A stretch of 64,000 bases of DNA, taken from positions 1,302,001 to 1,366,000 of the forward strand of contig NZ_CP115670.1 of the NCBI RefSeq assembly GCF_027886475.1. The letters are read 5' to 3'. A program made the position numbers and the translations under genes. Shown here piece by piece: positions 4,212 through 60,465 of the stretch. The stretch is from Corynebacterium sp. SCR221107 (lineage in GTDB: Bacteria; Actinomycetota; Actinomycetes; Mycobacteriales; Mycobacteriaceae). The notes beneath the pieces are model-generated. The model made no database searches and was not told where the DNA came from. It saw only the letters and a list, made by a program, of their open reading frames with translations. Within the stretch, counting starts at the first letter, position 1. Every line of letters starts with the position of its first letter.

Positions 4212-4222
4212 GCTTTCCGACG
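4212..4222 (+). repeat. dispersed GCTTTCCGACG motif, copy 1
   Basis: Exact core in the divergent spacer between the epimerase gene and the thiamine-binding-type gene. It is part of a longer repeat shared with the copy at 22866 (CACATTCGC before it, TACCGC after it). Confidence 0.7.
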
Positions 4223-4278
4223 CCTACCGCACGCAATCAACCACCGGCTTTCACCCAAAATATTCGTCCCACACGGCC

Positions 4279-4284
4279 TACAAT
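4279..4284 (+). promoter_or_regulatory. -10 box TACAAT for leaderless gene
   Basis: TACAAT ends 7 nt before the ATG at 4292, so transcription should start at or next to the start codon. Confidence 0.6.
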
Positions 4285-4291
4285 GGGCCTC

Positions 4292-4600
4292 ATGATTATT
4301 GCTTTTTCCGTCGCCCCCACCGAGACCCCCAACGCGGAAGCCGAAATGGCCGATGCGGTCACCGAGGCCGTGCGGGTGGTACGCGAATCCGGCCTGCCCA
4401 ATGAAACCAATGCCATGTTTACGCTGATCGAGGGCGAATGGGATGAGGTGATGGACGTGGTCAAGCGCGCAACCGAGGCGGTGGTGGCCGTCTCCCCGCG
4501 CGTGAGCCTTGTGCTCAAGGCGGATATCCGCCCTGGGCACATAGGCCAGATCACCTCTAAGGTGGAAGCCGTCGAGCGTCGTTTGGCAAGAAACGATTAG
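4292..4600 (+). CDS. MTH1187/YkoF-type thiamine-binding family protein
   Basis: A 102-residue protein MIIAFSVAPTETPNAEAEMADAV... of the MTH1187 (former DUF77) family, which has a ferredoxin-like fold; some members bind thiamine. The second half SPRVSLVLKADIRPGH matches the family strand that precedes the C-terminal helix. The ATG at 4292 is preferred over 4283 because the TACAAT box overlaps the upstream ATG and sets a leaderless start at 4292. The substrate here is not shown by the sequence. Confidence 0.75.
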   Translation: MIIAFSVAPTETPNAEAEMADAVTEAVRVVRESGLPNETNAMFTLIEGEWDEVMDVVKRATEAVVAVSPRVSLVLKADIRPGHIGQITSKVEAVERRLARND

Positions 4601-5250
4601 CAGCTGCAGCCAGCAGGAACGCTGATCGAGCCTCGCGAAGGAATAGCACTGCAGTGCGCCCCTTCCTTGCCAGCTCTGGCCGCAACCGGGCAGCTGCATC
4701 CACAAGCAGTCGGGATTGCGCAGGAGTAGCCGGGGAGGGCAATAACTGCGGTGCCTGATGCCTGCCGTCGAGTCGGGGCAGGGAAAGCGGTGTCCGGGCA
4801 ACGCAGCGCACGGGGGCCGGCCGCATAAGGCCTGAGATTACAGTCTTAGCTCTCGCACTCTTACGCTCTTACGCTAAGGCCTCAGGCCAAAGACGCGCTC
4901 AGAAGCCTCCTCCACAAGGCTTCTTCAAAAGCCCCAGGCAAGGCGCTGAGTAGGCTTTTGAACTCGATGGTCCCAGACGCTCGCACATCAGTGCCCGGCC
5001 ACAGGCAAGGAACCCTCCTCATTGCTAGGCTCGGGGCTGCCGGGAACAAAATCCTTGCCGACAAACGTTGAAACTAGGCGAAAAAAATCAGCGAAAGAGG
5101 CAACGACGATTTCTGCGAAATGCTCAGCGGGCTCGACGACATGCACTTACGCCCGCCTCGGCGCGGGACTGGAAAGCTCGTTGAGGCTGCGTCGGCGTGC
5201 CCGTTGGAATCCCCGTTTTACTCTGAATAAAGAAAGAGACCACATAAGCC
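4601..5250. other. 650-bp intergenic region
   Basis: No gene I can support. A minus-strand frame across 4557-4826 is Ala/Arg/Pro rich and has no domain or ribosome binding site, so I read it as a shadow of GC-rich DNA. A weak hairpin AGAAGCC/GGCTTCT lies at 4901-4924, and CTCTTACG is tandemly repeated near 4857-4874. A degenerate CCTTGCCGAC resembles the dispersed motif near 5053. Confidence 0.5.
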
Positions 5251-6201: not shown

Positions 6202-6254
6202 GTCCTATCCACAGTCTTGGTATGAGGCTGGCAGAAGCTGGTCACCAATGCGAA

Positions 6255-6289
6255 AAGCGCCTGCCCCCGGTCAACGGAGGCAGGCGCTT
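6255..6289. terminator. bidirectional terminator
   Basis: AAGCGCCTGCC / GGCAGGCGCTT, an 11-bp perfect stem with a 13-nt loop, between the convergent ybbN-like gene and glgB. Confidence 0.8.
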
Positions 6290-6302
6290 GAGCGCATGAG
6301 GA

Positions 6303-9103: not shown

Positions 9104-9139
9104 AGGCCCAGCCCCACGTGGTGCGCTGGGGCTGGGCCT
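9104..9139 (-). terminator. terminator of glgE
   Basis: AGGCCCAGCCCCA / TGGGGCTGGGCCT, a 13-bp perfect stem. On the minus strand it is followed by TATCTTTTT, a good intrinsic terminator. Confidence 0.85.
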
Positions 9140-11401: not shown

Positions 11402-12253
11402 ATGACTGCTCTAGCAAGTGGCATTGCCCCAGAAACGCGCGACCCAGACCTGCTCGTCGACTTTGAGGACGTCAGTTTTATCCGCGATGGAAAGACCCTG
11501 CTCGGTCCGATTACCTGGCAGGTTGAATTGGACGAGCGGTGGGTGATCGTCGGACCCAACGGCGCCGGAAAGACCACCCTCATTCGCCTTGCTGCGGCCG
11601 AGGAGTTTCCTTCCTCCGGCAAGGCGTGGATCATGGGCGAACGGGTCGGCAAGACCGATATGCGCGATCTCCGCACGATGATCGGCGTGTCCTCTTCCGC
11701 GCTTGGCAACCGCATACCTCCGAATGAAAAGGTCGCTGACCTCGTAGTTTCTGCAGGCTATGCCATCTTGGGTCGCTGGCGGGAGGAATATGAGGAATTG
11801 GATCTGGATCAGGCCACGGAGATCCTCGAGCAGGTCGGCGCCTTGCACCTTGCTGAGCGCACGTGGGGCACCTTAAGTGAGGGTGAGCGCAAGCGCGTGC
11901 TGGTTGCCCGCGCCTTGATGACCAACCCTGAGCTGCTGCTTCTCGACGAACCCAGCGCGGGCATGGATCTCGGCGGCCGCGAGGATCTCGTTGGATACCT
12001 AGGCGAGCTTGCGATGGACGCGGATGCCCCGGCGATTGTCATGATTACCCACCACGTGGAAGAAATCCCCGATGGTTTCACCCACGCCTTGCTGCTGGAT
12101 GAAGGGTCCGTCGTGGCGCAGGGGCTCATCGATGACGTGTTGACCAGTGAGAACCTCTCGCGCGCCTTCCATCAATCCATCAGCATCGATAAGATCGACG
12201 GTCGCTATTTTGCCCGCCGTTCCCGCGCCTCTCGCGGCGCCCACCGCGCCTAG
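11402..12253 (+). CDS. ABC transporter ATP-binding protein
   Basis: A 283-residue stand-alone nucleotide-binding domain with Walker A GPNGAGKTT, signature LSEGERKR, Walker B LLLLDEPSAGMD and the switch His in MITHHVEE. The arrangement resembles the iron/molybdate-type or YlmA/ModF group of ABC ATPases. No permease gene is adjacent, so the transported substrate is unknown and an orphan or non-transport role is possible. A basic tail (ARRSRASRGAHRA) ends the protein. The ATG at 11402 is close behind CATGAT, compatible with a leaderless start. Confidence 0.88.
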   Translation: MTALASGIAPETRDPDLLVDFEDVSFIRDGKTLLGPITWQVELDERWVIVGPNGAGKTTLIRLAAAEEFPSSGKAWIMGERVGKTDMRDLRTMIGVSSSALGNRIPPNEKVADLVVSAGYAILGRWREEYEELDLDQATEILEQVGALHLAERTWGTLSEGERKRVLVARALMTNPELLLLDEPSAGMDLGGREDLVGYLGELAMDADAPAIVMITHHVEEIPDGFTHALLLDEGSVVAQGLIDDVLTSENLSRAFHQSISIDKIDGRYFARRSRASRGAHRA

Positions 12254-12389: not shown

Positions 12390-12400
12390 GCTTTCCGACG
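12390..12400 (+). repeat. dispersed GCTTTCCGACG motif, copy 2
   Basis: Exact core in the spacer between the ABC ATPase and NUDIX genes, preceded by TT and followed by TTCACAGG. Confidence 0.7.
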
Positions 12401-13697: not shown

Positions 13698-14942
13698 GTG
13701 AGCTATACCCGTGATGAGCTGAACTTCTTTGGCTGCAACAAAGAAGAAATCGACAGCGTCTGCGCACAGCTGGGTCTTCGCAAGTCGTCGGCTGTGGCAG
13801 ACGGGGCGCTCGTCCGCGAGGCCTTCGGTTCCTACGGCCGTGCCGTCATCGAGCTTGCCACCGCGCGTTCGTCCACCACCGGAAAGCTTCCGCAACAGTG
13901 GTGGATGTGCCATGATTCCGCGCAGCAGGCGACCCCGCTGGCCGTGGCCTACCAGCGTGCCCTGCGCATCGGGAAGCTGCTGGGAGCAGGGGAAGCACCG
14001 GCGGTGGCGGGCAGTGGCGGGGTCGGCCTCGTCTACGATGCCACCTGTTCGATCGGTACCGAAGGCTATGCTTTGCAGGCAGCGGGCGTGGGCTATGTGG
14101 GCGGCGACCTGGATGATTCGCGCCTGCGGATGGCCCGCCACAATCTTGGCGACGATGCCAGGCTCGTGCGCGCGGATGCGGTGAACCCTGCGATCACAGA
14201 TGCCGCGGTGGTTGTCGCGGATCCCGGCCGGCGGGCCGGCGGGCGTCGCATTATCAAGCCCGAAGACCTGATTCCACCGCTGCCCGCCGTGATCGAGACC
14301 TGGGGACGATCGGCGGAGCTTGCCATCAAGTGCGCCCCGGGGCTGGACTTTAGTGCTTGGGAAGGGCTGGTCAGTGTGGCCAGCGTGGACGGCGGGGTAA
14401 AAGAGGCATGCCTGTATTCCGAGGGATTATCCGCCGGTAGGCGTCGGGAAGCGATCATGCTCAAGGCCCACGCGCACGGTGAGGTCGTGCCCGGGCTAAG
14501 CCAGCGCTATGCCTGCGACAGGGTCGATGACTCGATGCCCGATGACGCAGGAGTCGGGGAGGTAGGCACCTACATCCTCGACCCGGACGGGGCGGTGGTG
14601 CGCGCCGGGCTGGTGCGCCACTACGCCTGCCGGGAGGGGCTCTGGATGCTCGACGAGCACATCGCCTACCTCACCGGGGACCACCTGCCGGAGGGGACAA
14701 GTGGATTTAGATTCATCGAGATGGTTCCTGTGAAAAAGCTCAAACAAGCCCTGCGGGCGCACGATGCCGGCTCGGTGGAAATACTGGTTCGCGGGGTGGA
14801 TGTGGATCCCGATCAGCTACGCAAGAAACTGAGCCTAAAGGGGAAAGCCCAGCTAGCGGTGGTCATTGCCCGCATCGGCAGTCAGGCGCAGGCCTATATC
14901 TGCCACAAGCGCGAGTTCGCCACTGCACGCCAGGGGTACTAA
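13698..14942 (+). CDS. THUMP-like domain SAM-dependent methyltransferase
   Basis: A 414-residue protein conserved in actinobacteria. The middle holds a Rossmann methyltransferase core: VYDATCSIGTEGYAL, VGGDLDDSRLRMARHNL, DARLVRADAVNP and VVVADPGRRAGGRR, a DPxR variant of motif IV. The C-terminal 70 residues (FRFIEMVPVKKLKQALRAHDAGSVEILVRGVDVD...) match the THUMP-like domain found in RNA methyltransferase relatives. An RNA target is inferred, not shown. I use the GTG at 13698 (MSYTRDELNFFG) rather than the upstream ATG at 13638; AAGGAC lies about a dozen bases upstream. Confidence 0.78.
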   Translation: MSYTRDELNFFGCNKEEIDSVCAQLGLRKSSAVADGALVREAFGSYGRAVIELATARSSTTGKLPQQWWMCHDSAQQATPLAVAYQRALRIGKLLGAGEAPAVAGSGGVGLVYDATCSIGTEGYALQAAGVGYVGGDLDDSRLRMARHNLGDDARLVRADAVNPAITDAAVVVADPGRRAGGRRIIKPEDLIPPLPAVIETWGRSAELAIKCAPGLDFSAWEGLVSVASVDGGVKEACLYSEGLSAGRRREAIMLKAHAHGEVVPGLSQRYACDRVDDSMPDDAGVGEVGTYILDPDGAVVRAGLVRHYACREGLWMLDEHIAYLTGDHLPEGTSGFRFIEMVPVKKLKQALRAHDAGSVEILVRGVDVDPDQLRKKLSLKGKAQLAVVIARIGSQAQAYICHKREFATARQGY

Positions 14943-16160: not shown

Positions 16161-17114
16161 TTGACTAACAGCTATGTTTTGGTTGAGCACGCTGACGGCA
16201 AGCTCCTTCCTGCAACCGGGGAACTGATCACCGCCGCACGCGTTTTCGGTGAGGTCACCGCCGTGGTTGTTGGCACCCCTGGTGTCGAGGCTGCCCTGGC
16301 TCCTGCCCTCGGTGAGCTCGGTGCCTCCGTGGTCTACGCCGCCTACAGCGCTGATGCCAACGAGCGCATCGTATTGCCAGCTACCGACGCCTTGCACATG
16401 CTAGCCGCATCCAACCCGGCTCCCATCCTCATCGATGCCGGCGCTCACGGCAATGAGATTGCCGGGCGCCTGGCTGCCCGCTTGGCCTCAGGTGTCTTGT
16501 GCGACGTGGTCGGTGTCAATGCCGACCGCACCGCGAACATGTCCATCTTCGGCGACACCATCGAGGTCACCGCCGCGGTGGGCGGCAACAGCCCCATCTA
16601 CACCCTGCGCCCCGGCGCAGTCGATGCGGTGCCGGCGCCCACGACCCCTGCCGTGCAGGCCTTCGAGCTGCCTGCAGCCGGCGTCAAGGATGTTAAGGTT
16701 ACCTCCTTTACTCCTTCCGCCAAGGGGGATCGCCCCGACTTGGCACAGGCCAAGGTGGTCATCGCCGGTGGCCGTGGCGTGGAGTCCGCTGAGAACTTCG
16801 GTTCCCTCGTCGAGTCGCTTGCCGACGCGCTGGGCGGTGCCGTGGGCGCTACCCGTGACGCGGTGGATCTGGGCTACTACCCGCCGCAATTCCAGGTAGG
16901 TCAGACCGGCGTTACCATCTCCCCGGATCTCTACATCGGTCTGGGCATCTCCGGTGCCATCCAGCATGTCTCCGGCATGCAGACCTCCAAGAAGATCATC
17001 GTCATCAACAACGATGAGGACGCGCCTTTCTTTCAGATTGCAGACCTCGGTGTTGTCGGCGACCTCCACGAGATCGCCCCACTGCTGGTGGAAGAAATCA
17101 ACAAGCGCAAATAG
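16161..17114 (+). CDS. etfA: electron transfer flavoprotein alpha subunit
   Basis: EtfA (FixB) binds FAD and pairs with EtfB. The 317-residue protein shows the FAD-binding C-terminal domain: VVIAGGRGVESAENF, LGGAVGATRDAVDLGYYPPQFQVGQTGV, PDLYIGLGISGAIQH and VINNDEDAPFFQIADLGVVGDLHEIAPLL. It starts with TTG at 16161, with AAAAGGAAAAG upstream. No acyl-CoA dehydrogenase or ETF dehydrogenase gene is adjacent. Confidence 0.94.
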   Translation: MTNSYVLVEHADGKLLPATGELITAARVFGEVTAVVVGTPGVEAALAPALGELGASVVYAAYSADANERIVLPATDALHMLAASNPAPILIDAGAHGNEIAGRLAARLASGVLCDVVGVNADRTANMSIFGDTIEVTAAVGGNSPIYTLRPGAVDAVPAPTTPAVQAFELPAAGVKDVKVTSFTPSAKGDRPDLAQAKVVIAGGRGVESAENFGSLVESLADALGGAVGATRDAVDLGYYPPQFQVGQTGVTISPDLYIGLGISGAIQHVSGMQTSKKIIVINNDEDAPFFQIADLGVVGDLHEIAPLLVEEINKRK

Positions 17115-17343: not shown

Positions 17344-17354
17344 CGTCGGCAAGC
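17344..17354 (-). repeat. dispersed motif, GCTTGCCGACG variant, copy 3
   Basis: Minus-strand copy of the G variant in the leader region of the desulfurase gene, about 100 bp upstream of its start. Confidence 0.55.
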
Positions 17355-22786: not shown

Positions 22787-22865
22787 CTACTCCACACACC
22801 GATCCACCCCCGTTCCCTCCAGCGCCGTGGCCCTGAATGCGGACTGTTCGCACATTCGCGGTGTT

Positions 22866-22876
22866 GCTTTCCGACG
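22866..22876 (+). repeat. dispersed GCTTTCCGACG motif, copy 4
   Basis: Exact core after the MprF-like gene. Context CACATTCGC before and TACCGC after matches copy 1. Confidence 0.7.
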
Positions 22877-22944
22877 CTTACCGCGCCGAGGCGTTCAACC
22901 AGGGCAACCCCACGATTTCCCATGGCTTCAAACACAAAAAGAAT

Positions 22945-22993
22945 GAGCCCCCTCGTACAGCGTCAACAACGTCGACACCGTACAGGGGGGCTC
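22945..22993. terminator. bidirectional terminator
   Basis: GAGCCCCC ... GGGGGGCTC with an additional inner GTAC/GTAC pairing, between the convergent MprF-like and mycolyltransferase genes. Confidence 0.75.
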
Positions 22994-23013
22994 ACGCTCA
23001 ATTTAGAGAGACT

Positions 23014-24451: not shown

Positions 24452-24462
24452 CGTCGGAAAGC
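24452..24462 (-). repeat. dispersed GCTTTCCGACG motif, copy 5
   Basis: Minus-strand copy abutting the short palindrome AGCAGTCTGCT (24460-24470). Confidence 0.7.
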
Positions 24463-24700: not shown

Positions 24701-24711
24701 GCTTGCCGACG
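24701..24711 (+). repeat. dispersed motif, GCTTGCCGACG variant, copy 6
   Basis: G variant about 240 bp from copy 5, on the opposite strand, 38 bp beyond the 3' end of the spermidine-synthase-like gene. Confidence 0.55.
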
Positions 24712-27352: not shown

Positions 27353-27363
27353 GCTTGCCGACG
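27353..27363 (+). repeat. dispersed motif, GCTTGCCGACG variant, copy 7
   Basis: G variant preceded by a run of six T and followed at once by AAAGGAAA, the probable ribosome binding site of the next gene. Confidence 0.55.
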
Positions 27364-31788: not shown

Positions 31789-32454
31789 TTAGCTATCCAT
31801 GAGCTTGCCAAGGATGGTTGCGAGATTGCCGAAGTGCTCGACCTCGCTGGGCTGGTAATCGGGGCCACCGACACGGCCTAGGATAAGCAGCTCGTTGCGA
31901 TTATGCAGTGGGGCGGCGGTCAGCGCGGTGTCCAGCAGCGCCCACGACTCCGGGATCCATTTCTCGGTGTCGGGGCGAAGGACTCGCGCGGTGTCGATCT
32001 CGGGTACGTCCGGGGTGGTGCCATCGTCCTCAGGGGCAGCCGGGGAAGCGGTAACCCGGTGCAACTTGCCGTCTCCTGTGGCCAACAGGATCGCCCAGGT
32101 TGAGGTCAACACTCGGGGAATATTGTCGATGAGGTGCGCAAGCGAGTTTGCTTGGTTGCGGGCGCTGGCGACGTCGGCAAGCATGCGAATCTGGCCGCGC
32201 CGATCAACCGTCCCGCTGAAGGGCCGGATGGAATCAACCTCCACACCTTCCACATCATGCGCGGCGGTGATCAGCGCATCTGCCATGACTCCGTTGGGAA
32301 GGCTGACGACCATATCATCCATGACGGTGCCGTCGGGGAAGGCTTCGACCACGTCCACCGATTGGATATCGCCGCCGGTGCTGCCGATCGCCTCTGCTAA
32401 ATGTCCCAAGCTACCGGGGCGATCGGGCAAAAGGATGCGGATCAAGTACGACAT
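31789..32454 (-). CDS. ACT domain-containing protein
   Basis: A 221-residue protein starting with an ACT domain (YLIRILLPDRPGSLGHLAEAIGSTGGDIQSVDVVE), the fold that senses amino acids. The rest (SLAHLIDNIPRVLTSTWAILLATG ... LHNRNELLILGRVGGPDYQPSEVEHFGNLATILGKL) resembles a GAF-like sensory domain. It is conserved in this position between ligA and gatC in corynebacteria; function unknown, regulation by amino acids is likely. AGAGGT precedes the ATG at 32454. Confidence 0.78.
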   Translation of the reverse strand: MSYLIRILLPDRPGSLGHLAEAIGSTGGDIQSVDVVEAFPDGTVMDDMVVSLPNGVMADALITAAHDVEGVEVDSIRPFSGTVDRRGQIRMLADVASARNQANSLAHLIDNIPRVLTSTWAILLATGDGKLHRVTASPAAPEDDGTTPDVPEIDTARVLRPDTEKWIPESWALLDTALTAAPLHNRNELLILGRVGGPDYQPSEVEHFGNLATILGKLMDS

Positions 32455-33254
32455 GGGGATACCTCTGTAATTCTTCTATATCTATCGGGGACGTAAATCT
32501 GCTAAAGCTATGCCCGGACGTGGGAAAAGGATGGTTTTCCCAGGCGTGGACGTGGATAGAGATTTTCTTTTGTGGAACCCATCTTAGGAGCCGGGGCTGG
32601 TTATTTCGAGAGTGCAACACTCATGAGTGGCCGCCTTCGCTGGTTCTTTTGTTGAAACGTTCGGGGTCTGCAAAAGTTTCCCACCCCACCCCCGGCGCAG
32701 AATATATTCGGACCGGGCGCGAGTAAAAAATTCACTTAAAGCGAGAAACTGTGGCGCGGTCATGGTGCCCCCACACCGGCCTGGGGGAAGTGCTCCGGCG
32801 CGCATTTTTTATGCTTAACGACGTTGACCGCGCCGAATGTGACAGGTTCCACTGCGTGGCACGTCTTTTTGTGAATGCAATTGGTGCCAGAAGGAAAAGT
32901 CCATAAGCTAGGACATTCTATGTACCCGGCGGCAACTATGTCCAAGCGTTAGGCAGCGAGAAAGTTCATCCCCGGCGACAAGGCGGGGACAAGGCGACCA
33001 CGGCGATGGTTGCAAGGACAGCAGCGCAAGGCTGGGTGTCAAAAAAGAATAGGAAACAGGAAGTTATTGAGAAGTTGCAGAAATGCCAGATGCAAGAGAT
33101 TGTGGGGTGGGTGTTAAAGCCTTTGCCTGCCCTGTGAAGTACTATTGCCACTAGCACCCTGCCATAAAGCACCCATCTGCTTTTTAGCCGGGGAGTATGC
33201 GCGCGAGGGCGCGCACCAATAAACGTTGCAAAACACGTGTAAAGGATCTTTTCA
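32455..33254. other. 800-bp intergenic region before gatC
   Basis: The longest gene-free stretch of the window. It is less GC-rich than its surroundings in places (32640-32760, 33040-33180). No coding frame with ribosome binding site or domain was found and no tRNA, RNase P or tmRNA fold was recognised. TACTAT near 33139 could be a -10 box for gatC with a long leader. Confidence 0.5.
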
Positions 33255-35286: not shown

Positions 35287-35297
35287 CGTCGGAAAGC
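35287..35297 (-). repeat. dispersed GCTTTCCGACG motif, copy 8
   Basis: Minus-strand copy in the 5' leader of the MFS gene, 28 bp upstream of its start codon. Confidence 0.7.
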
Positions 35298-38531: not shown

Positions 38532-40590
38532 GTGTTGAATGTGCGAGATTATCGTTCGCTGCGGGTTGTTCTTGCCGTAGTGGCTGTATTGTGTTTTGTT
38601 CTCGTTGGGACGCCGCGGGTTGTGGCTCAGGCGTAGACTGCGCCTCGGGAAGAGGTTCCGTCGACCACTACCGCGAGCTCAGCGTCTGCGGCGAAGTCGA
38701 TGCTGATCGTGGACTTGTCTGGTTCTATGTTGGCTGAAGACGTGGGGGGTGGTTCCCGCCTCGATGCCGCGAAGGCTGCGGCGAGCGAATTGGTGGATTC
38801 GGTGCCCGATGACGCCCAACTCGGTTTGATGGTCTACGGACAGCAGGAGTCGAGTGCGCCGGAGAATCAAGAAGCGGGATGTAAGGACATCCAGGTGATC
38901 TCGCCGGTGGGCAAAGGTGATAAGTCGAAAATGAAGCAAGATATTGCTGGTTTTGCTGCTTCTGGCTATACCCCGATTGGAAACTCCTTGCGTTCGGCTG
39001 CCGACGAGCTGGGCAAGGAGGGGGAGCGATCCATCATCCTAGTCTCCGATGGCATTGATACCTGCGCCCCGCCGCCGGTGTGTGAGGTGGCGAAGGAGCT
39101 TGGCGGCGCGGGCTATGGCCTGACCATTCACACCGTTGGATTCAAGGTGGACGAAGCTGCCCGTGCTGAATTGGAGTGTGTTGCCCAGGCTACTGGCGGT
39201 GAATTCCGCACCGCCGGCGATGCTCGCGAACTGGCGGATTCAATGACCTTTTTGGCAACCCGCAGCCTCGTCGGGCACGAGGCTGTTGGAACGGAGTTTG
39301 AGTTCGCCGACGATCCGGCGGATGCCAAATGGCTGGGCGAGGGTCGTTATCGAACAACGGTTGTGCCAGAAATTGCCAACGATGCAGATGGTGCGAATCC
39401 GCTGTACTACCGGATTGCAATTCCAAAAGATCACAATGCAATCGTGATCCTTAAGGCGATTCCGAATCGGAACGAAGAGGGTGAAGGGGAACAAGACCTC
39501 ACCTTTGCAATTGAGGCGGACAATGATTCCAGTGAGAAGTGTCAGGATACGCGGTCAAATGAATCAATTTCTACCACGGTACCTGCCAACAACTACGAGC
39601 CGAGTTCGGGATTCTACACGGTGATTACCACTGATCCTGAGGATGGAATGGATCCGGCGTGTGATCAAACTCAGTGGAACATTGGTAATAAGGTGTTCGT
39701 CGATGGATCTGATGTCAAGGCCGAATTTAGGGATAACCCCGTGGTTGTCGAGGTGGAGGTGCAATTTGAACCTCAGGTAATGAAGCGGGATCGGGGACAA
39801 CTGCATCAGGGATGGCACCGCATGGAGAAAGAGTCAGTCCCCGAGGTCTCCTTCGGTGATGCAAGCCGAATTACCGGTGGGGCCAGCACGGCGAAGGCTA
39901 TTGAGCTCAGCAGTGGCGAGACCCATGCCGATAGCATCGTCAAAGGCGAGATGAAGTATTACAAGGTTCCCGTTGAGTGGGGTCAGCGGCCGGTGGTGGC
40001 CATCCGCACCAAGGAAAACCAGTTGGATGACGCTGTAAGACCCTCAGTGTTGTTGCTCAATCCGTTTTATGGGAAAGACTATGTGGTCGGTCGTGAGCTC
40101 CGGGAAGAAAATATTCGCACCATTGCTGTCAACCGTCCGATTGAATTTATGAATAGATCGAGCGACAGAGGTGGCGGGGATGTTGCCTATGCGGGTTACT
40201 ATATACATTGTTGTCGGAGTGTTGGAGACTGATGCGGAAAAGCTGCAAGGTACGGAGCAGGAATATGAGTTGTCCGTGCTGTTGGATGGGAAACCGACCA
40301 AGGGGCCTGACTGGCGTCCCGTAGAGGTCAACGGCCCGAAGCCTTCGGACAAGCCGATTCTGTCGGACAAGGAAACTGCAAGTGCTACGGCAAAGCCGAC
40401 CGAGTCTGCGTCGGGGGAAGCGACGACGTCCCAGGCGTCGGAAAGCGTTGAGGCGATGAATACCTCTGCGTCCGAGGACAAGCGCTCAAATCTTCCGATG
40501 AAGATTCTGGCAGCGGTCGCCGGATTCCTCATCTTGCTACTCGTGCTTGCGTTCGTGATACTGCGAATCGTAAAGGAATTGAAGAAGTAG
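38532..40590 (+). pseudogene. VWA-domain secreted, membrane-anchored protein, broken by TAG and frameshift
   Basis: The intact ancestor was a protein of about 685 residues: signal peptide (VLNVRDYRSLRVVLAVVAV... VVAQA), Ser/Thr-rich linker, von Willebrand A domain with MIDAS motif DLSGSM, GYTPIG and SDGID, a beta-rich region, a Ser/Glu-rich stalk and a C-terminal membrane helix (ILAAVAGFLILLLVLAFVI) with a basic end. An in-frame TAG at 38634-38636 follows AQA, just where signal peptidase would cut; reading continues in the same frame to MIDAS. Near 40200 (GGTTACTATATACATT) one extra base shifts the frame; removing it joins ...AGYYYIVVGVLE and restores the tail to 40590. GTG 38532 has AGAGGAG 8 nt upstream. 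Internal starts such as ATG 38700 would lack the signal peptide. Confidence 0.85.
40436..40446 (-). repeat. dispersed GCTTTCCGACG motif within the VWA pseudogene tail
   Basis: Exact minus-strand core within the Ser/Glu-rich stalk (SQASESVEA). Could be chance codon use or a true copy. Confidence 0.4.
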
Positions 40591-40785: not shown

Positions 40786-41706
40786 ATGGTAGTTGATACC
40801 CGGAAAACCGATCGCGCACACGACAAGCAAGAGGCCAGGGAGGCCGCTGCGCCGGATCGCCGACGGAAGATGGTAGCCAAGGGGGCCACGGTTGCTGGGC
40901 GCAGTCGGGTGGCCGCGAACATGGTGCGGCTGAGCTTTCGTACGGATGCTGACCTTAGTGTCGTGGACACCACGGATGCATACGTCAAGCTGCTTTTCGT
41001 GCCGGAGGAGGCCGATTATGCGTGGCCTTTCACTATGCAGGACGTGATGACGCAGCAGCCGGGCCATCTGCGTCCCATCCGGCGCACCTATACGCTGCGC
41101 AACATCGACGCCACCGCGGGAACCTTTGATATCGACTTCCTTTACCATGGCGAGAGCGGGCTTGCGGGGCGCTGGGCCGGAACTGTCGAGCCCGGCACTC
41201 ACATCGGGTTCCTCGGCCCGAGAGGTGGCTGGCGTCCAGAAGCGGAATTTTCGCACTTTGTCTTAGCCGGTGACGAGGCGGCCGCCCCGGCGATCGGCGA
41301 GGCCCTAGCGGCGTTGCCCGAGGGCGCGAGCGCGCAGGTATTCGTGGAAGTGGAATCGAGCCAGCATCGCTTCGAGCTGCTCATCGGTGAGGAGCTAGAG
41401 AAGAAACTGGGGGACAGGGTAGCGCTTTATTGGGTTGAGCGTGATGGGACAACGCCGGGCGTGAAGCTGGTGGAAGCACTGCGGACGGCACAGTATCCAG
41501 ACAAAGAAACCTCCTGGTTTGTCCACGGCGTTGCGGAAATGGTTAAGGATGTCCGTCGCTTCCTTTTCGTCGATAAGCAGGTAGCGAAAGAACGGGCCTC
41601 CATTTCCGGTTATTGGCGGTTGGGGGAAACGGAAGACGTGTGGCAGGCAACCAAGCGTACGTTGCTCGAGGAATGGGAAGCCCAAGAAAGCGCGGAAGAA
41701 AACTAG
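40786..41706 (+). CDS. siderophore-interacting protein (FAD ferric-siderophore reductase family)
   Basis: A 306-residue cytosolic flavoprotein of the SIP/ViuB family, which reduces ferric siderophores to release iron. Visible are the FAD-binding PIRRTYTLRNID, DFLYHGESGLAGRWAG, GFLGPRGGW, and the C-terminal SIP domain with HFVLAGDEAAAPAIGEAL and FVHGVAEMVKDVRRFL...ISGYWRLGETED. ATG 40786 has a double Shine-Dalgarno (AAGGAGGGTGAAGGA). The DtxR box just upstream indicates induction in low iron. No transporter genes are adjacent. Confidence 0.92.
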   Translation: MVVDTRKTDRAHDKQEAREAAAPDRRRKMVAKGATVAGRSRVAANMVRLSFRTDADLSVVDTTDAYVKLLFVPEEADYAWPFTMQDVMTQQPGHLRPIRRTYTLRNIDATAGTFDIDFLYHGESGLAGRWAGTVEPGTHIGFLGPRGGWRPEAEFSHFVLAGDEAAAPAIGEALAALPEGASAQVFVEVESSQHRFELLIGEELEKKLGDRVALYWVERDGTTPGVKLVEALRTAQYPDKETSWFVHGVAEMVKDVRRFLFVDKQVAKERASISGYWRLGETEDVWQATKRTLLEEWEAQESAEEN

Positions 41707-43719: not shown

Positions 43720-45225
43720 ATGACTAGCGCTATGTACGACCTGATGGACTACGACGAGGTCCTTGAGAAGTATGACCCGGTAATGGGTCTTGAGGTTCAC
43801 GTCGAATTGGCAACCGAGACCAAGATGTTTTCCGCGCCCTCGGCGCATTTCGGTGCCGAGCCCAACAGCAACGTCGACCCGGTCTCCCTGGGCCTGCCGG
43901 GCGCGCTCCCGGTGGTCAACGCCAAGGGTGTGGAGTGGGCCATTAAGATCGGCCTGGCTCTCAACTGCACGATCGCGGAGTCCTCGCGTTTCGCGCGCAA
44001 GAACTACTTCTACCCGGACCAGCCGAAGAACTACCAGATTTCCCAGTACGACGAGCCGATTGCGTATGACGGCTACCTGGACGTTGTGCTTGACGACGGC
44101 ACCACGTGGCGGGTGGAGATCGAGCGTGCCCACATGGAGGAGGACACCGGCAAGCTCACCCACCTCGGTGGTGCGGACGGGCGCATCCACGGTGCCACCG
44201 CCTCGCTCGTGGACTGCAACCGCGCAGGCATCCCGCTCATCGAGATCGTGACCAAGCCCATCGAGGGCGCTGGGGAGCGCGCCCCTGAGGTTGCCCGGGC
44301 TTATGTTGCTGCGCTGCGCGACCTAGTCAAGGCCCTGGGCGTCTCCGATGCACGCATGGACCAGGGTTCCATGCGCTGCGATGCCAACCTCTCCCTGCGC
44401 CCGATCGGCCAGAAGGAATTTGGCACCCGCACCGAGACTAAGAACATTAACTCGCTCAAGTCCGTTGAGCAGGCCGTGCGCTTCGAAATGCAGCGCCAGG
44501 CACAGGTGCTCGAGGACGGCGGCGAGATCGTCCAGGAGACCCGCCACTACCAGGAGACCGATGGCACTACCTCCAAGGGGCGCCCCAAGGAGACCGCCGA
44601 GGATTATCGTTACTTCAACGACCCGGACTTGCCGCCGGTGATCGCCCCGCGCGAGTGGGTCGAAGAGATCCGTGCCACCCTGCCGGAGCTGCCGTGGGTG
44701 CGCCGCGCGCGCATCCAGTCCGAGTGGGGGCTCAAGGACGAGGAGATGCGCGACCTGGTCAACGCCGGTGCGCTCGACCTCATCGTCGAGACTGTCGAGG
44801 CGGGCGCGGAGCCCTCCGAGGCACGCTCCTGGTGGGTGGCCTATCTTTCCCAGAAGGCCAATGAGGCCGGCGTCGAGCTCGATGCTTTGTCGATCACCCC
44901 GGCCCAGGTCGCTCGCGTGGCCGCCCTGGTCAAGGAGGGCAAGCTGACCAACAAGCTGGCCCGCCAGGCCGTCGACGGCGTGCTGGCCGGCGAGGGCGAC
45001 GTGGATGAGGTCGTCAAGGCTCGTGGCCTGGAGGTCGTCCGCGACGACGGTGCGATTGAGAAGGCCGTGGATGAGGCACTCGCCGCCAACCCGGACATTG
45101 TGGAGAAGTACAAGGCCGGTAACACCAAGGTCACCGGCGCCATCGTGGGTGCGGTCATGAAGGCCACCCGCGGCAAGGCCGACCCGGCGCAGGTAAACAA
45201 GCTCATTGCTGAGAAGCTGAAGTAG
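43720..45225 (+). CDS. gatB: Asp-tRNA(Asn)/Glu-tRNA(Gln) amidotransferase subunit B
   Basis: GatB activates the tRNA-bound Glu or Asp with ATP. The 501-residue protein shows [19 protein letters not shown], the metal/kinase region [60 protein letters not shown], and the YqeY-like C-terminal tail for tRNA binding. ATG 43720 is 7 nt after TAGTAT (leaderless). It completes GatCAB with the genes at 33.3-35.0 kb but has its own promoter. Confidence 0.97.
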
Positions 45226-46647: not shown

Positions 46648-46658
46648 GCTTTCCGACG
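46648..46658 (+). repeat. dispersed GCTTTCCGACG motif, copy 9
   Basis: Core fused to the T tract of the terminator: seven T, then GCTTTCCGACG. Confidence 0.7.
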
Positions 46659-47553: not shown

Positions 47554-48423
47554 ATGAACCCACTTCACCTGCAGACCTTGCTCACGATCGTCGATGAGGG
47601 CAGCTTTGAAATGGCCGCCTACGCCCTAGGGATCAGCCCCTCGGCGGTCAGCCAGCGTATCAAGGCTTTGGAAAAGTCGGCCGGTAGGGTACTGCTGCGC
47701 AGGCAGACCCCGGTGACCGTCACCGAGGCCGGGGAGGTCCTTGTCCAAGCGGCCCGTCGCATGGCGTTGTTGGAGGCCGAGACTCGGGTGCAGTTGCGGC
47801 GTAGCCTTGAGCACATCCCGCTGGCCGTTGGGGTCAACGCGGACTCCTTGTCCACCTGGTTTCGCTCGGTGCTGGCCAGCGTGTCGGCCTGGGGTGATAC
47901 CACGCTAACCATACGTATCGAGGACGAGTCGCACACCCTTGATTTGCTGCGCAAGGGGGATGTGCTGGGAGCTGTTACCCGTGAGGACGAGGCTGTCTCT
48001 GGATGCGAGGTGATCCCGCTCGGGGTAATGCGGTACTTTCCGGTGGCAACCGCCTCGCTGCTCGATCGCTTCACCGTGGATGGGGAGATCGATTGGGTCA
48101 ACCTGCCGGTGCTGCGTTTTGGTCCGCGCGACGGTCTGCAAGACCAAGACCTGGTGGCTCGAGTTGGCCACCAGATCCGCCAGCGCCGAGTTTCACAGGT
48201 CCCTTCGGCGGAGGCGTTTATGGAGGCCTCACGCGTCGGCCTGGGCTGGGCCTTGTTGCCGGAATCTCAGGCCCGTGTCTTGCTTGATGGCGGCGAAGTC
48301 GTGCTTGTCGACGACCATGTGCTCGAAGTTCCCCTGTTCTGGCAACGCTGGCGGCTGGAGTCGCCCGCGCTGGAGAAACTCACCGCCGCCGTGGTAGATG
48401 CAGCGGGGGTGCTCCATTCCTAA
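47554..48423 (+). CDS. lysG: LysR-type activator LysG
   Basis: LysG (ArgP group) activates lysE with lysine, arginine, histidine or citrulline as effector. The 289-residue protein has the winged helix-turn-helix at residues 1-60 (LQTLLTIVDEGSFEMAAYALGISPSAVSQRIKALEKSAG) and the periplasmic-binding-protein-like effector domain (AVGVNADSLSTWF, VTREDEAVSGCEVIPLG). The start appears leaderless. Confidence 0.93.
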   Translation: MNPLHLQTLLTIVDEGSFEMAAYALGISPSAVSQRIKALEKSAGRVLLRRQTPVTVTEAGEVLVQAARRMALLEAETRVQLRRSLEHIPLAVGVNADSLSTWFRSVLASVSAWGDTTLTIRIEDESHTLDLLRKGDVLGAVTREDEAVSGCEVIPLGVMRYFPVATASLLDRFTVDGEIDWVNLPVLRFGPRDGLQDQDLVARVGHQIRQRRVSQVPSAEAFMEASRVGLGWALLPESQARVLLDGGEVVLVDDHVLEVPLFWQRWRLESPALEKLTAAVVDAAGVLHS

Positions 48424-53308: not shown

Positions 53309-55014
53309 ATGGCCAGGGCCAACTTGTACGATGCCCGCTACCGTGCGATCGTTGCCGCTTTTGGCGCAATGGGGGCAAAGGTCTGGGCATTCGAGAAGAC
53401 CTTCAAGCTGCAGCCACAGTCCGAGCGTGAGAAAAGGCGTGAGCAGCTGTGGTCCGGAATCGGGCGGGACTTTCGTGAGCTGGCGATGGATAAGGGCGGG
53501 CTGATCGTCAAACTGGGTCAACACTTGAGCACCCACGTCGAGGTGATCCCGCCCGCGATGATCGCGCAGATACAGGACTTGCAAGACGTCGTCGCCCCTG
53601 TGCCGACCGAGGAGATCATTACCGTCGTTGAGCAGCAGCTAGGTGCACCGATCGGGGGATCCTTCCGCGACTTTTCCCACCACTGTCTTGGCGCTGCCTC
53701 TTTGGCGCTGCCTCTTTGGCGCAGGTTCACGCGGCCACCTTGCACGACGGTAGGTCGGTGGCGGTCAAGGTGTTGCGACCTGGTATCGACGAACTCATCG
53801 AGTGCGATTTGGCGGCGATCAAGACCAGTCTGAAGATGCTCGAAAGGGGCATGAAGCTGGGCGATTTCATGGACACGGATGCGTTCATGGCTGAATTCGA
53901 GGAAACTAGCCGCAACGAGCTCGATCTAGGAATGGAACTTGCCAACGCGCGTCTTTTTAAGGACAACCTTCACGAGATCGAGAGAGTCTACGTGCCGGAG
54001 GTCTACCCAGACTACTCCGCCCAAAGGGTGTTGACCCTGGAATACGTGGAGGGAATCAAGGTCAACGACCTTAAGGGGCTGGATGCGGCGGGTGTAGATC
54101 GGGAAAAGGTCGCCAAGACTCTCATCGATATCTACGCACGCATGGTGCTCATCGATGCCTTCTTCCATGCGGATCCGCATCCCGGAAATGTGTGGGTGCG
54201 ACCAGATTCCACGGTCATTCTGTTGGACTTTGGCATGGTCGGCCGAGTCACCGAGCCGATTCGCGATGGCTTTGTTCGCTTCGCCATCGGCATGATGCTG
54301 CGCGACGGGGAAGCGATGACCGATTCGCTTCAGGAAATGGGATTCCTGCGCGCGGGTGCTAAAACCAAGCTACTCGGGCGCGCGCTTGTGGCCTTTGCCG
54401 ATGTCACCGCGGCAGGATCTAGGCAGGCGGCGATGGGAAAGGCCATGAGCTTTTCCGACGGCCTGCGTAACAACATCATCGAGCTGATGCGCTCTCAGCC
54501 ATTCCAGCTTCCCGATAACGTCACCTATTTGCTTCAGGCGCTGATGACGGTCACGGAGGCCTGCTAGCAGCTGTACCCTGAGATCGACTTGGTGGCAGAA
54601 GTGGAGCCCTATGCGCGTGATCTCGCCGACGTGCTCGGCATCGATGCTGGTGGGTGGGGCTTTTATGAGCTTATCGACGCCCTGCGCGCGCAGGGACCAC
54701 ACTATCTTTCTCTGTTGCGGCAATTGCCCACAGTGGTGGAGCAGGCTGCGCACGGGGGGACCGTCGTGCACCTGACCAGCGTGCAGGAGCGGCATCTGTT
54801 GCGCAGTAAGGCCAAGCAAACAACGCGGATTACCCGTAGCATCGCCGGTGCCACGCTTACGCTGGGTGGGATGGTGCTGATAGGAGGCAATTACCCGAAC
54901 GTCAATAAAAGCATAGCAAAGGTAACCTCGGCGATTGGCGCCGCGTTGATGCTGGCACAGACCTCGGGCAAGTATCGCGGGATCACCCCGCACGAACGCA
55001 GGCATACCAACTAA
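53309..55014 (+). pseudogene. AarF/UbiB-type ABC1 kinase, broken by 14-bp duplication and TAG
   Basis: The ancestral protein (about 560 residues) has GGLIVKLGQHLSTHVEVIPP (the KxGQ motif), SVAVKVLRPG with the ATP-binding Lys, HADPHPGN and LLDFGMVGR, then a C-terminal membrane part (ATLTLGGMVLIGG ... AIGAALMLAQ). These proteins take part in quinone or lipid handling. Two lesions are seen. At 53688-53715 a 14-bp unit is duplicated; removing one copy restores CLGAASLAQVHAATLHDG, a family signature. At 54565-54567 an in-frame TAG interrupts TEAC-QLYPEIDLVAEVEPY; reading resumes in the same frame to 55014. The downstream piece from 53716 could still be translated but lacks the N-terminal KxGQ motif. 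Confidence 0.88.
53688..53715 (+). repeat. 14-bp tandem duplication inside the AarF gene
   Basis: TTGGCGCTGCCTCT occurs twice in direct contact, then TTGGCGC again. The extra copy shifts the frame. Confidence 0.9.
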
Positions 55015-55058: not shown

Positions 55059-55069
55059 CGTCGGAAAGC
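55059..55069 (-). repeat. dispersed GCTTTCCGACG motif, copy 10
   Basis: On the minus strand it reads TTTTGCTTTCCGACG immediately after the ilvD terminator stem, as copy 9 does after its terminator. Confidence 0.7.
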
Positions 55070-55072
55070 AAA

Positions 55073-56984: not shown

Positions 56985-57162
56985 GGACTGGTCCGTCTTT
57001 CTATTTTCTATGAAATTCGAATTCGGTGGGGTGTAAACGAGCCCTATGGGTAGGGCACAAGAATGAATCTGCAGCCAAAGGGTGGAGCCAAAAATCACAA
57101 AAGGGGTAGTGCTAAAAAGTTACGCCCCTTTTGTGTGTTACTGCAAGAAACGAAGGTGAGTT

Positions 57163-57837
57163 CTACTTGGCGCTGTGCTCTGGCGCGGAGCCCTCTGCGA
57201 CCGCCTGACCATCGACGCCGTGCTGATTGTCTCCTGCATCGGCGATAGCTGACTTGTGCGCCTGAGCTTCCTGAGCTTCCTGAGCTTCCTGAGCGGCCTT
57301 GTGTGCCTGAAGCTTGTCGTACTCTTCCTTAGAAATGAGCACCTCGTGGCCGTCCTTGTAAACGATGCGTACCTTGTCGTCGGCGGCGGCAAGTCCCTGG
57401 CTCAAGGCATCGGGAATGCGGCCGCGGGAGGCTTCCTCCAAGGCGGGAAGCGAGTTGAAGCTCACCCCTGGTAGGGAAAAAGTCTTCTTCTCCTTGGTTT
57501 GGACGAAGGCGCGGGCGCGACGGAAACCAATGCCGGCTACCTCTTGCCAAGGAAGGGAAACGTTTTTTCCGAAAGCGTAGTCGATATCAATGCCTTTTTC
57601 ATTGACGACGGTGCGTGAGCGCAAGACCCAGACCACGAACACAATCGGGAAGGCGAGAACCCAAAACAGGTACTGCGGTGCGGCGCCGATGGCAATCAGC
57701 AAGATGCCGAACATGATGGCGGCGCCGAGCAGGTGAGTACGATCGGGCCGAAACTCCGCAGCATTTTCTGGAGAAGATCCCTCGGATTTTCCTGCAGGGT
57801 TGGTCTTTGATGAGGACGTGGCCGTGTCTTTGCTCAT
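57163..57837 (-). CDS. PH-like domain membrane protein
   Basis: A 224-residue protein with a Ser-rich N-terminus, two close membrane helices (HLLGAAIMFGILLIAIGA, YLFWVLAFPIVFVVWVL) and a bacterial PH-like domain (SRTVVNEKGIDIDYAFGKNVSLPWQEVAGIGF...FSLPGVSFNSLPALEEASRGRIPDAL). It is the conserved gene between ilvD and mscCG in corynebacteria. The tail has three QEA repeats encoded by 9-bp tandem units. ATG 57837 is 8 nt after TACTAT (leaderless). Confidence 0.78.
   Translation of the reverse strand: MSKDTATSSSKTNPAGKSEGSSPENAAEFRPDRTHLLGAAIMFGILLIAIGAAPQYLFWVLAFPIVFVVWVLRSRTVVNEKGIDIDYAFGKNVSLPWQEVAGIGFRRARAFVQTKEKKTFSLPGVSFNSLPALEEASRGRIPDALSQGLAAADDKVRIVYKDGHEVLISKEEYDKLQAHKAAQEAQEAQEAQAHKSAIADAGDNQHGVDGQAVAEGSAPEHSAK
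57262..57288 (-). repeat. three 9-bp tandem units in the PH-like gene
   Basis: CTGAGCTTC occurs three times in a row with a degenerate fourth; codes QEA steps in the C-terminal tail. Length may vary between strains. Confidence 0.8.
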
Positions 57838-58032
57838 GAAGCACCATAGTAGTAGAAGAATCTGAGCAAGCCGACACAGGGTGATGGGGGAAGGACCACC
57901 CACGCTAAGCGGCGCGTGCCGAAAGCCGCGCTGCGCATTGAGCAACACTAGGCTGCCGGCGAATGATTGCGGATTAGCCGATGTCGTGACCACCTTCCTG
58001 CCCTTAGCCTGTAGCTGTTTTCGAACCAGCGC

Positions 58033-60021
58033 CTAGGGCGTTGAGGCCACGCTTGCCCCGGAGTTTCCTGAATTATTAGTCTCTCCGCTTTGTCCCGCGG
58101 TGCCGCCGGCGCCCGCCTCAGGGGTTGGCGCGCCAGTAGGAGTTGCCTGCGCCGGCGTTGGCGTGTTGGTGTTGAAGTAGTCAGAATCGTCGGTGTTTCG
58201 ATCCTCCCGGCCGGAGTTGCCCGTGCCGTTTCCGTTGTCGTTGGTTGCGGGGGTGTTTGTGCTTTCCGACGCCTCCGGTGCCTGTTGCCCGGGGGTGGCT
58301 TTCCCAGAGCTGGCGGTGGTAGGGGCAACCGCCTGCGTGGGGCTCGGCGTGGCCTCGGGACGCGCGGTCCCGGTGCCTGCGGGTTGCGGCGAGGAGGTAG
58401 TGGTGCGCGCCGGGGCGAGAACGCCATCCTTGCCGTCGTAGGACTCTGAGGTCTGCAGCGTGAGGCCTTTAAGAACCAGTAAGAGGATGAAGACAATCAT
58501 CAAGATCGTCGTGGACACGCGGGTCCTGCCACCGACGGTGAGGATGCGAACCAAGCCACGGCGTACACGCCCGCCGGTGGCAGCAGCGGGTGCGTTCTCG
58601 TCTTCGTCGAGGGGGGCATCCTCCTTGTCGGGGGAATCAGCTTGCGGTGCTCCCGCTTCGGGAACCGATGCCGCGGCCGCGGTCTCCGGGAACGGTTGAC
58701 TGGAGTCCTCGGGCAGTAGCGCGGGGGTGGGTTCGTTCCCGTCTGAAGGCACAGGCTTTGCCGTCGATGCTGCAAGGTGCGCATCGCTTTCGTCCTGTGG
58801 ACGCACGATGTCTTTTCGTGCCGCGGAGTTGATACCGCCCTCATCGGCCGCGGGGTCTTGGACGTGCTCGGTTGTCACTTCATTCTTTTGGTCCTTGGGG
58901 GAGGCCGAAGCGGAGTGGGTTGCGGAAGCGAAGCCATCAGGGTCTTGGCTGCGGGGCGCGGACGCCGGGGATGGCTCGGCGGGGGCTGCAGCGGCGCGGA
59001 AAACGGTGGTGGCGACGTCGGCAAGCGACGACGCGGAACCCTGGGAAACCGCCACGGTGCCATCGGGATTGAGCGGAAGGACTACCGGTTGGGCGGCGCC
59101 AGTCGCCAGTGTGGGTGCGGATGCGGCCGTGGGGGTGGCGGACACGGAATGCAAGGTGTCAGCAACCGCGCCGTTTTGCGTCGGTGCGGAACCGTATTCG
59201 GCCCAGAATTCGTCGATGAGGCTCGTGCGGATGGCGCGTTCGACCATCCATTGGCTTCCCGGCTTGACCTGGCACAAAAAACGCATGGACACAGTCCACG
59301 GGGAGCCAACGGTGGCCGGGGGATTGACCCCCACCGAATCGTGGACGGTGAGCTCGCCGAGCACCTCCTGCGCGATCTCGGGCCGGGCCAAAGCCTTGCG
59401 CGCCGCGCGCCCGCCACGGTCGATGGCTTCCTGGATGGAATGCGAACCCAGCAAAGGGATCGGCATGACGACAACGGCGCGTGACCAATAATTCGAGTTA
59501 TTAATGGACACGCCCGCCTTGGAATTGGGGATGATGACCGTCTCCTCGGCCAAGGTCCTGATGCGTGTGGCGCGCATCGTAATTTGGATAACGGTGCCCT
59601 CGACGGTGGTGGTGCCACCCTCAAAGCGCACCCAGTCGCCCACACCGTATTGTTTCTCGCTCAACACGAAGAAGCCGGCGAGGAAGTCGGCGATGATGGA
59701 CTGTGCGCCAAGACCGATGGCGGCAGAGGCCGCGGTGGCTGGGATGGCCGCCCCGGCGAGGGAGAAGCCAAGCTGTTGTAGGGCGAAGACGAAAATGATG
59801 AAGTAGGCGATCACCTGCGCCACGTAGACTGCAACGCCCGCGAACGCGAGGTGAGTTTTCGACTCATCGACGCTTTCGTCAGCGACCTGGCGCTCCACGA
59901 TGCGCATGGCAATGCGTCCGAAACGCGGCACCAGAAACGCCAACACGATGAGTAGGGCGAGAGTGAAACCGGTGTCGATGAACCAATTCCACAAGCTGTG
60001 CAGAATATACGGAAGTGGCAT
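58033..60021 (-). CDS. mscCG: mechanosensitive channel MscCG (MscS family, glutamate exporter type)
   Basis: MscCG opens under membrane tension and is the glutamate exporter of C. glutamicum. The 662-residue protein begins [36 protein letters not shown]; the pore helix is [42 protein letters not shown]. The MscS beta-domain ends near residue 285. A long disordered cytosolic linker, a fourth membrane helix ([20 protein letters not shown]) and a Thr/Pro/Asn-rich outer tail follow, the MscCG hallmark. The C. glutamicum protein is about 530 residues, so this linker and tail are longer. ATG 60021 follows TACCCT by 8 nt; a GTG/ATG upstream (60060) gives an unlikely N-terminus. Confidence 0.92.
58261..58271 (+). 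repeat. dispersed GCTTTCCGACG motif within mscCG tail
   Basis: Exact core in the disordered outer tail (coding EASES on the minus strand). Confidence 0.45.
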
Positions 60022-60454
60022 GCCACCCAAGGGTAGCCACTTTTGCCAACCGGCTGGCATGGCTGAGGCCTATCCCTGATCGTTGGTCTCGCTGCGTGGC
60101 CTCGAGAGCATGCTCGGCAGGAATGATAGATGGATCGGATCAGCCAAGATTCCCCATCCAACTTGTGTCGCCTTGTAAGTTTGTTGTCGATGCCGCCGCG
60201 CTTTCGACCGTGGGTGTTTCCTTTTCCCTTAATTTCTTCATTCTCTTTGTCTTTTGGTTTAGTGCCTTCTTGGTCGGTTTATTTTCTTACTCGTCGTGCT
60301 CGTAGTGCTCTTAGTGCTTGTTGCGCTGGTCGAGTCCGTGGTGCTCGTTGTGCTCGTCTAGTCCGTCTGGGACGGCTGGCGTGTTTTGTTCGTTCAGCTT
60401 GCTTCGCGGTTGCTTGGCTTGCTTTTTGCCTCGTGTGCCCGGATGTCTGTGTGT

Positions 60455-60465
60455 GCTTGCCGACG
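60455..60465 (+). repeat. dispersed motif, GCTTGCCGACG variant, copy 11
   Basis: G variant about 190 bp upstream of the ilv leader promoter. Confidence 0.55.

Follow-up and report, generated by a model that had tools for sequence, protein, structure and literature searches.

A dispersed word in Corynebacterium genomes as a probable DNA uptake sequence with lineage dialects

The 64,000-nucleotide stretch of the Corynebacterium sp. SCR221107 chromosome analysed here (contig NZ_CP115670.1, positions 1,302,001 to 1,366,000; hereafter the window) carries many copies of a short word, in its general form GCTTNNCGACG, which recurs throughout the genome and in many other genomes of the genus. We consider this word to be a DNA uptake sequence (DUS), for which a preference during uptake is predicted; as judged from sequence, we put the probability at roughly four in five. 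The preliminary description of this DNA had proposed a real element that is dispersed, strand-neutral and often intergenic, and genome-wide counting bears this out. A DUS was absent from the options listed there, and it is the best explanation of the data. The original observation is therefore confirmed and enlarged, and the word is most likely the DUS of a new lineage.

Abundance, spelling and placement of the word

The narrower spelling GCTTKCCGACG (the K form) occurs 16 times in the window against 0.14 expected, and none of 100 dinucleotide shuffles reached 16, in agreement with the earlier estimate that an 11-mer of this kind should appear far less than once in 64 kb. Across the 3.04-Mb genome the K form has 877 copies (447 forward, 430 reverse) against 15 for a reversed-word control (5 + 10), and the general form GCTTNNCGACG has 1432 (726 forward, 706 reverse) against 82 (41 + 41). 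A genome-wide count close to chance had been named as grounds for dismissing the element; both counts lie far over their controls. The balance between the strands, which also holds within each chromosome half, upholds the absence of strand bias reported before. Combining the window with 20 evenly spaced stretches of 20 kb gave a 464-kb sample of the genome, and this word accounts for its top-ranked 9-, 10- and 11-mers. Single-substitution counts show little tolerance at nine of the 11 positions of the word, in contrast to positions 5 and 6 (NN), which are tolerant; the near-matches GCGTGCCGACG (11 against 1.6 expected) and GCTCNNCGACG (40 against 11.1) are mildly enriched, and other single-substitution forms are around background at most positions. 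The base at -1 is T at 47 of the 65 T-type sites and at 59 of the 88 G-type sites, as the preliminary description had remarked. Further flank preferences are weak, with T from -1 to -5 and C, C, T, A, C directly 3' of the word, the T within this CCTAC flank being preferred only for T-type copies. Intergenic copies can thereby take the form TTTT-GCTTTCCGACG-CCTACGG; beyond such weak base preferences, no repeat extends around the word.

Genes were called with a rough home-made procedure, which put some 24% of bases outside genes, probably an overestimate. By these calls the 464-kb sample holds 239 copies of GCTTNNCGACG, of which 98 are non-coding, 139 coding and 2 partial, a 2.3-fold non-coding excess per base; the true excess may be larger, because the calls leave so much DNA non-coding. 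The K form in the same sample is non-coding at 81 of 153 sites. NN reads TC or GC in 80 of the 98 intergenic copies and in 73 of the 139 coding ones. Among the latter, 102 lie on the gene strand in the frame xxG-CTT-NNC-GAC-Gxx (Leu-X-Asp), with NN within the variable codon. An intergenic excess, together with a T-rich lead adjoining the word, could point to a transcription-factor site or to a terminator or regulatory RNA element. However, divergent gaps, where promoters lie, are the poorest (0.62 copies per kb, against 0.99 in tandem and 1.19 in convergent gaps), 139 of 239 copies sit within genes, and the K form in tandem gaps is oriented equally often with and against the genes (21 same, 21 opposite). 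We give a regulatory element very little credence, and the transcription-factor site suggested earlier is disfavoured for the promoter type.

The orientation of the copies bears on another of the earlier suggestions, a Chi-like recombination hotspot or FtsK-orienting site. Recombination-related words are over-represented, as this numerous short word is, and Chi and KOPS sites are oriented with replication. No such orientation is seen here: with the halves split by position near 1.5 Mb, where GC skew changes sign, the sampled copies divide between the strands as 64/66 and 55/54, and convergent gaps are preferred. The Chi/FtsK option is accordingly disfavoured, and we rate it below a regulatory element.

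Neighbouring copies are spaced more evenly than random (coefficient of variation 0.89 against 1.03 +- 0.07, P = 0.01), with one conspicuous gap. The stretch at 750-770 kb (G000:C1:750001-770000, L006; we denote genomes by G numbers and sampled loci by L numbers) holds no copy where the sample mean predicts about 10. Eight of its proteins were compared with Pfam and gave a TraG/TraD-type coupling protein, a TrbC/VirB2-type pilin, an M23/SLT cell-wall enzyme and a DUF, four remaining unmatched; given these conjugation-type genes, the stretch is likely an integrated conjugative element. If a defence system marked its own DNA at the word, by methylation (a methylation target was another of the earlier options) or otherwise, and favoured DNA that carries it, a densely marked chromosome and an unmarked conjugative element would likewise be expected. 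Nonetheless, restriction normally depletes its target, and we know of no self-marking system in which carrying a nine-base word with loose NN positions is an advantage. We hold such a site to be very unlikely, ranking it ahead of the regulatory element. As for a DUS, elements in Neisseria were recognised through similar gaps in the word, according to the text available from PMC7371117. At the other extreme of density, the stretch G000:C1:1950001-1970000 (L014) carries 29 copies in 20 kb, almost three times the mean; its genes look housekeeping-like by eye, and dprA lies about 5 kb outside it.

The window itself holds 24 copies of GCTTNNCGACG. All 13 sites of the preliminary description were recovered at their coordinates and on their strands; its list is correct as far as it goes and overlooked three coding copies of GCTTGCCGACG, at 16817..16827 (+), 32172..32182 (-) and 59016..59026 (-). 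It was also right that its sites are mostly non-coding, and the numbers given (11 non-coding, 2 coding) become 12 and 1 by our gene calls; with the three coding additions, 12 of the 16 K-form sites are non-coding, a stronger excess than in the 464-kb sample. Non-coding copies of GCTTTCCGACG are found at 4212..4222 (+, divergent gap), 12390..12400 (+), 22866..22876 (+; overlapped by an uncalled ATG open reading frame, 22837-23739), 24452..24462 (-), 35287..35297 (-), 40436..40446 (-), 46648..46658 (+, convergent gap, preceded by a T-tract) and 55059..55069 (-, convergent gap), and the copy at 58261..58271 (+) lies within a minus-strand gene. GCTTGCCGACG is non-coding at 17344..17354 (-), 24701..24711 (+), 27353..27363 (+, preceded by a T-tract) and 60455..60465 (+, divergent gap). 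The remaining copies carry other letters at NN: GCTTAACGACG is non-coding at 3584..3594 (-) and 32813..32823 (+, preceded by a T-tract), and coding copies are GCTTCTCGACG at 11938..11948 (+), GCTTCCCGACG at 14442..14452 (-, with CCTACCGG downstream), GCTTATCGACG at 41568..41578 (-) and 54669..54679 (+), GCTTGACGACG at 44088..44098 (+) and GCTTGTCGACG at 48303..48313 (+).

Distribution, turnover and dialects in the genus

Among 242 genomes of the genus, SCR221107 included, 171 carry 195-1964 copies of GCTTNNCGACG (the ACG word) and 71 carry 8-134. These class limits (<=134 against >=195) were chosen at a visible gap after the counts were known; reversed controls amount to about 120 or less, and some genomes of the low, ACG-poor class stand 2- to 4-fold over their control (G103, 134 vs 61; G179, 127 vs 35; G171, 115 vs 27). 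Outside the genus, the family was represented by 140 genomes from 30 genera, in which GCTTNNCGAYG is at or near control and never more than about 2.7-fold over it. In 120 genomes from other genera of the order the K form has 5-85 copies. The largest K-form excesses outside the genus concern small counts (13 vs 2, 34 vs 10, 57 vs 17). One further locus, L090, holds 18 copies in 21 kb and is closest to the main group by TadA.

Lack of conservation in relatives had also been named as grounds for dismissal. Aligned copies are in fact kept above matched background windows in 18 of 18 pairs of word-rich genomes. For the seven pairs with figures given here, and with unaligned sites excluded, the kept fractions are 10/10 for G106/G182 (background 44%), 13/14 for G219/G182 (45%), 9/10 for G106/G035 (46%), 9/10 for G053/G002 (39%), 8/12 for G009/G184 (26% coding, 10% non-coding), 5/12 for G059/G184 (12%) and 5/9 for G013/G217 (31%). 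Where a site is lost, the cause is a substitution far more often than a gap: 68 against 4 between word-rich genomes and 18 against 1 towards G001, as pooled over 19 overlapping pairs in both directions, so that the counts are not independent. Copies thus seem mostly to arise and vanish by point mutation. The same numbers speak to the suggestion that the word is the relic of a small mobile repeat. Dispersed and often intergenic copies would suit a relic, but the 86 substitutions against 5 gaps (overlapping pairs) do not, nor do the lack of an extended repeat, the tuning of the word to the codon frame and the same-letter difference at most sites of the sister pair described below. This earlier option is disfavoured, and of all the readings considered here it is the one we find hardest to credit.

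Several genomes poor in the ACG word use another one. The word GCTTNNCGATG (the ATG word), one letter away from GCTTNNCGACG and otherwise identical to it, reaches at least 200 copies in 17 of the 242 genomes, 16 of which are among the 71 ACG-poor ones. The counts are 1021 in G001, 1080 in G004, 1337 in G024, 736 in G027, 223 in G032, 680 in G097, 490 in G102, 1063 in G107, 625 in G129, 964 in G144, 983 in G145, 974 in G152, 213 in G157, 1184 in G165, 981 in G176, 211 in G185 and 1074 in G209. The 200-copy limit was chosen after the counts were known. The reversed control is too low as a background for this word: in many genomes that use the ACG spelling there are still 30-100 ATG copies against controls of 10-30, and in relatives of G106 the number is 118-165. 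A gapped-word scan of non-coding DNA with short halves was blind to GCTTNNCGATG, which was revealed by an ortholog table and by single-substitution counts. G001, G027 and G107 had been candidates for genomes without a word (G097 gave a weak hint of one), which the presence of GCTTNNCGATG ruled out. G024 carries both spellings, 1337 ATG and 352 ACG copies, and is possibly in the middle of a switch or bilingual.

A third sharp word, TGACGYCGCG, is abundant in G012 (1106 copies, control 27); the other 78 genomes tested hold 84 or fewer. Additionally, TCGACGCCAC, which follows a T-rich lead in non-coding DNA, is frequent in G049 (301 copies), G230 (218), G213 (181) and G143 (151), and present in lower numbers in G007 (130), G018 (127) and G037 (96), among 79 genomes tested. 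Its counts grade into background (86 in G232, 83 in G084), which makes this T-rich TCGACGCCAC/CGACGCCAC dialect less certain. The letters GACG are common to the ACG word, TGACGYCGCG and CGACGCCAC. The three sharp words cover 188 of the 242 genomes and, with the weaker word added, 195; only a minority of the remaining 47 was sampled. Other words turned up in single genomes. Samples of G036 (L058-L061, L071) are enriched in GCGTNNCGACG, a further one-letter variant (35 against 2.8 expected). The very GC-rich G206 (L043-L046, L082) shows other enriched non-coding words, GGCTNAGCC and CTGANCCGC. In G121 (L031-L034, L189-L191) a GGTTTTTCACACC-like word has 8-9 non-coding copies and is perhaps a local repeat.

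The difference between dialects can be followed site by site in one pair. A 20-genome tree built from TadA, a helicase, TopA and a HAD protein, in which the G036 and G241 sequences are short and some nodes weakly supported, places G106 (ACG) and G001 (ATG) as sisters; across the com locus these two share about 79% DNA identity. In two homologous loci G106 has 19 ACG copies, of which 1 is unaligned, 2 are gapped and 16 are aligned. At these 16 sites G001 reads GCTTNNCGATG 11 times, something else five times and GCTTNNCGACG never. Seen from the other side, 3 of 20 ATG copies of G001 are unaligned, and at the 17 aligned ones G106 reads ACG 11 times, ATG once and something else five times. Eight of the 11 shared differences are a synonymous GAC/GAT change in the usual frame, and three fall in other frames. 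For hundreds of dispersed sites to change to the same letter in concert, a single reader acting in trans is required, along with a force that bears on every copy simultaneously; the difference between the sisters may well be a switch driven by uptake. Genomes poor in the ACG word are interspersed among ACG genomes at several points of the same tree (G206, G001, G032/G043, G132, G012), and loss or change therefore seems to have happened repeatedly.

A reader is also at the heart of the alternative that we take most seriously, a site for a genus-specific chromosome-organising or nucleoid-associated protein that acts chromosome-wide and whose preference changes between lineages. About one copy per 2 kb, on both strands, with even spacing and a preference for intergenic DNA, is what such a protein might use; the word is absent from one mobile-element stretch; and any sharp reader gives a sharp word. 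However, each change in the protein would leave hundreds of sites under weak selection to be converted individually, and the sister pair differs by the same letter at most aligned sites, with not one unchanged. Moreover, there is no bias by chromosome half, and copy number within the genus ranges from background to 1964. We regard a nucleoid-protein site as unlikely, and at the same time as the most credible of the alternatives to a DUS.

Uptake genes and a possible reader

If the word is a DUS, free DNA would enter these bacteria via a route from the Tad/Flp pilus through ComEA and ComEC to DprA. A surface-exposed part of the uptake machine would bind double-stranded DNA with a T-rich lead, GCTT-NN-CGACG and CCTAC, and fragments bearing the word would enter more often and then recombine into the chromosome. 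Copies born by point mutation could spread and persist through this biased uptake, with no function needed for each of them. Should the preference of the reader shift by one letter, the same bias would rewrite hundreds of dispersed copies and so produce species dialects such as GCTTNNCGACG, GCTTNNCGATG, TGACGYCGCG and the weaker T-rich word with CGACGCCAC. In Neisseria, ComP is the word-specific surface receptor; by analogy, our guess for the reader would be a Tad minor pilin such as TadE or TadF, or else ComEA.

The genes that may serve transformation are present nearly everywhere in the genus. ComEC was found in 241 of 242 genomes and a ComEA-type HHH_3 domain in 242 of 242 (a count that includes Tex), T2SSF in 77 of 78 genomes tested (74 over the curated cut-off) and DprA in 78 of 78. 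SCR221107 has a Tad locus at about 300.4-305.0 kb with Ssd, TadA, TadB, TadC, Flp, TadE and a TadF-like protein, the gene names being assigned by eye and T2SSF. Similarity revealed the locus in 20 of 20 genomes fetched, with a fused TadB-C in some and a small pilin unmatched in a few. The fusion, a single open frame of about 350-385 aa that holds the two T2SSF domains, occurs in L085-L088, G037, G050, G081 and G213, all poor in GCTTNNCGACG. It is present in 5 of the 7 genomes highest in TCGACGCCAC; the fused G050, G081 and G241 hold 11, 17 and 30 copies. Locus L109 is by TadA closest to this fused-Tad group. Being near universal, ComEC, HHH_3, T2SSF and DprA were rejected as discriminators of word presence. 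Three word-poor genomes have unusual genes, namely an in-frame TGA in ComEC of G124 and weaker DprA matches in G029 and G113.

What is expected of a DUS is found here to a large extent: copies far above chance, a sharp word on both strands, dialects with shared letters, transformation genes (as judged by presence alone) and scarcity in a mobile element (one stretch). Several points nevertheless weigh against this interpretation. Frequent close inverted pairs at gene ends, a typical though not defining trait of a DUS, are missing; only 4 opposite pairs closer than 60 bp occur among 219 gaps, and such terminator pairs are common in Haemophilus. The scarcity of the word in mobile DNA comes from a single 20-kb stretch. 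The uptake genes do not track the word: T2SSF and DprA were looked for in 78 genomes, and nearly all of the 38 word-poor ones among them are positive; ComEC and HHH_3 are equally general. No such word was found in 47 of the 71 ACG-poor genomes, the DNA of few of which was sampled. The result for the sister pair comprises two loci and 16 aligned sites, although the counts over whole genomes point the same way. Comparison of G106 with G001 singled out no Tad or Com protein as the reader (protein identity is 71% for ComEA, 74% for TadF, TadC and SSD, 77% for ComEC and 92% for Flp); an alignment of ComEA from 17 genomes gave no outlier either, and no search for ComP was made. Finally, we know of no uptake experiment in the genus, and the open-PMC matches listed contain no report of natural competence or transformation in Corynebacterium.

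Relation to known uptake sequences

A 2025 paper states, in the text available, that recognition of such motifs is known from no families other than Neisseriaceae and Pasteurellaceae (PMC12616744). The Corynebacterium word resembles the DUS of Neisseriaceae, as far as described in the accessible part of Frye 2013 (PMC3630211), in its very many copies and in lineage dialects that lie a few letters apart within one clade. Unlike the Neisseriaceae DUS, it belongs to an actinobacterial genus with a Tad/Flp pilus in place of the Neisseria pilus with ComP, is bipartite with two loose positions and a T-rich lead, seldom forms close inverted pairs, and has an uptake preference that is a prediction from sequence. 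With the uptake signal sequence (USS) of Pasteurellaceae it shares a short sharp core, weaker flanks that include T/A-rich tracts, dialects, and a receptor that is, in the available text of the 2025 paper, predicted without experimental proof; the USS itself is an unrelated word (AAGTGCGGT / ACAAGCGGT) of gammaproteobacteria with a type IV pilus (PMC12616744). Closer in lineage, the actinobacterium Micrococcus luteus is described as transforming with Flp/Tad pili, ComEA and ComEC, thus with a machinery like that found here, and the text available of that work mentions no uptake sequence (PMC6370729). The open-PMC matches listed hold no earlier report of an uptake sequence, or of this word, in Corynebacterium, and the literal 10-mer matches among them look by title like chance primer matches. 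In the accessible part of a paper on spaced motifs, the patterns reported for three Corynebacterium species are linked to CRISPR (PMC5217627).

Taken as a whole, we think it probable, with somewhat less assurance than for the DUS itself, that natural transformation occurs in Corynebacterium and that the genus possesses a DUS of its own, the first outside the two proteobacterial families, which a component of the Tad pilus reads across the mycomembrane; this DUS would have three or more sharp dialects and would have switched by one letter between sister species. The genus includes skin, mucosal and industrial bacteria. The clean one-letter difference between G106 and G001 brings a question of long standing within reach of direct tests, namely the identity of the protein that reads the word and the power of uptake bias by itself to rewrite a genome. 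If the interpretation is true, Corynebacterium would be predicted to take up the DNA of its kin. It would also provide a third, actinobacterial case of a DUS, which would speak for convergence: uptake-sequence drive would have arisen independently for at least the third time.

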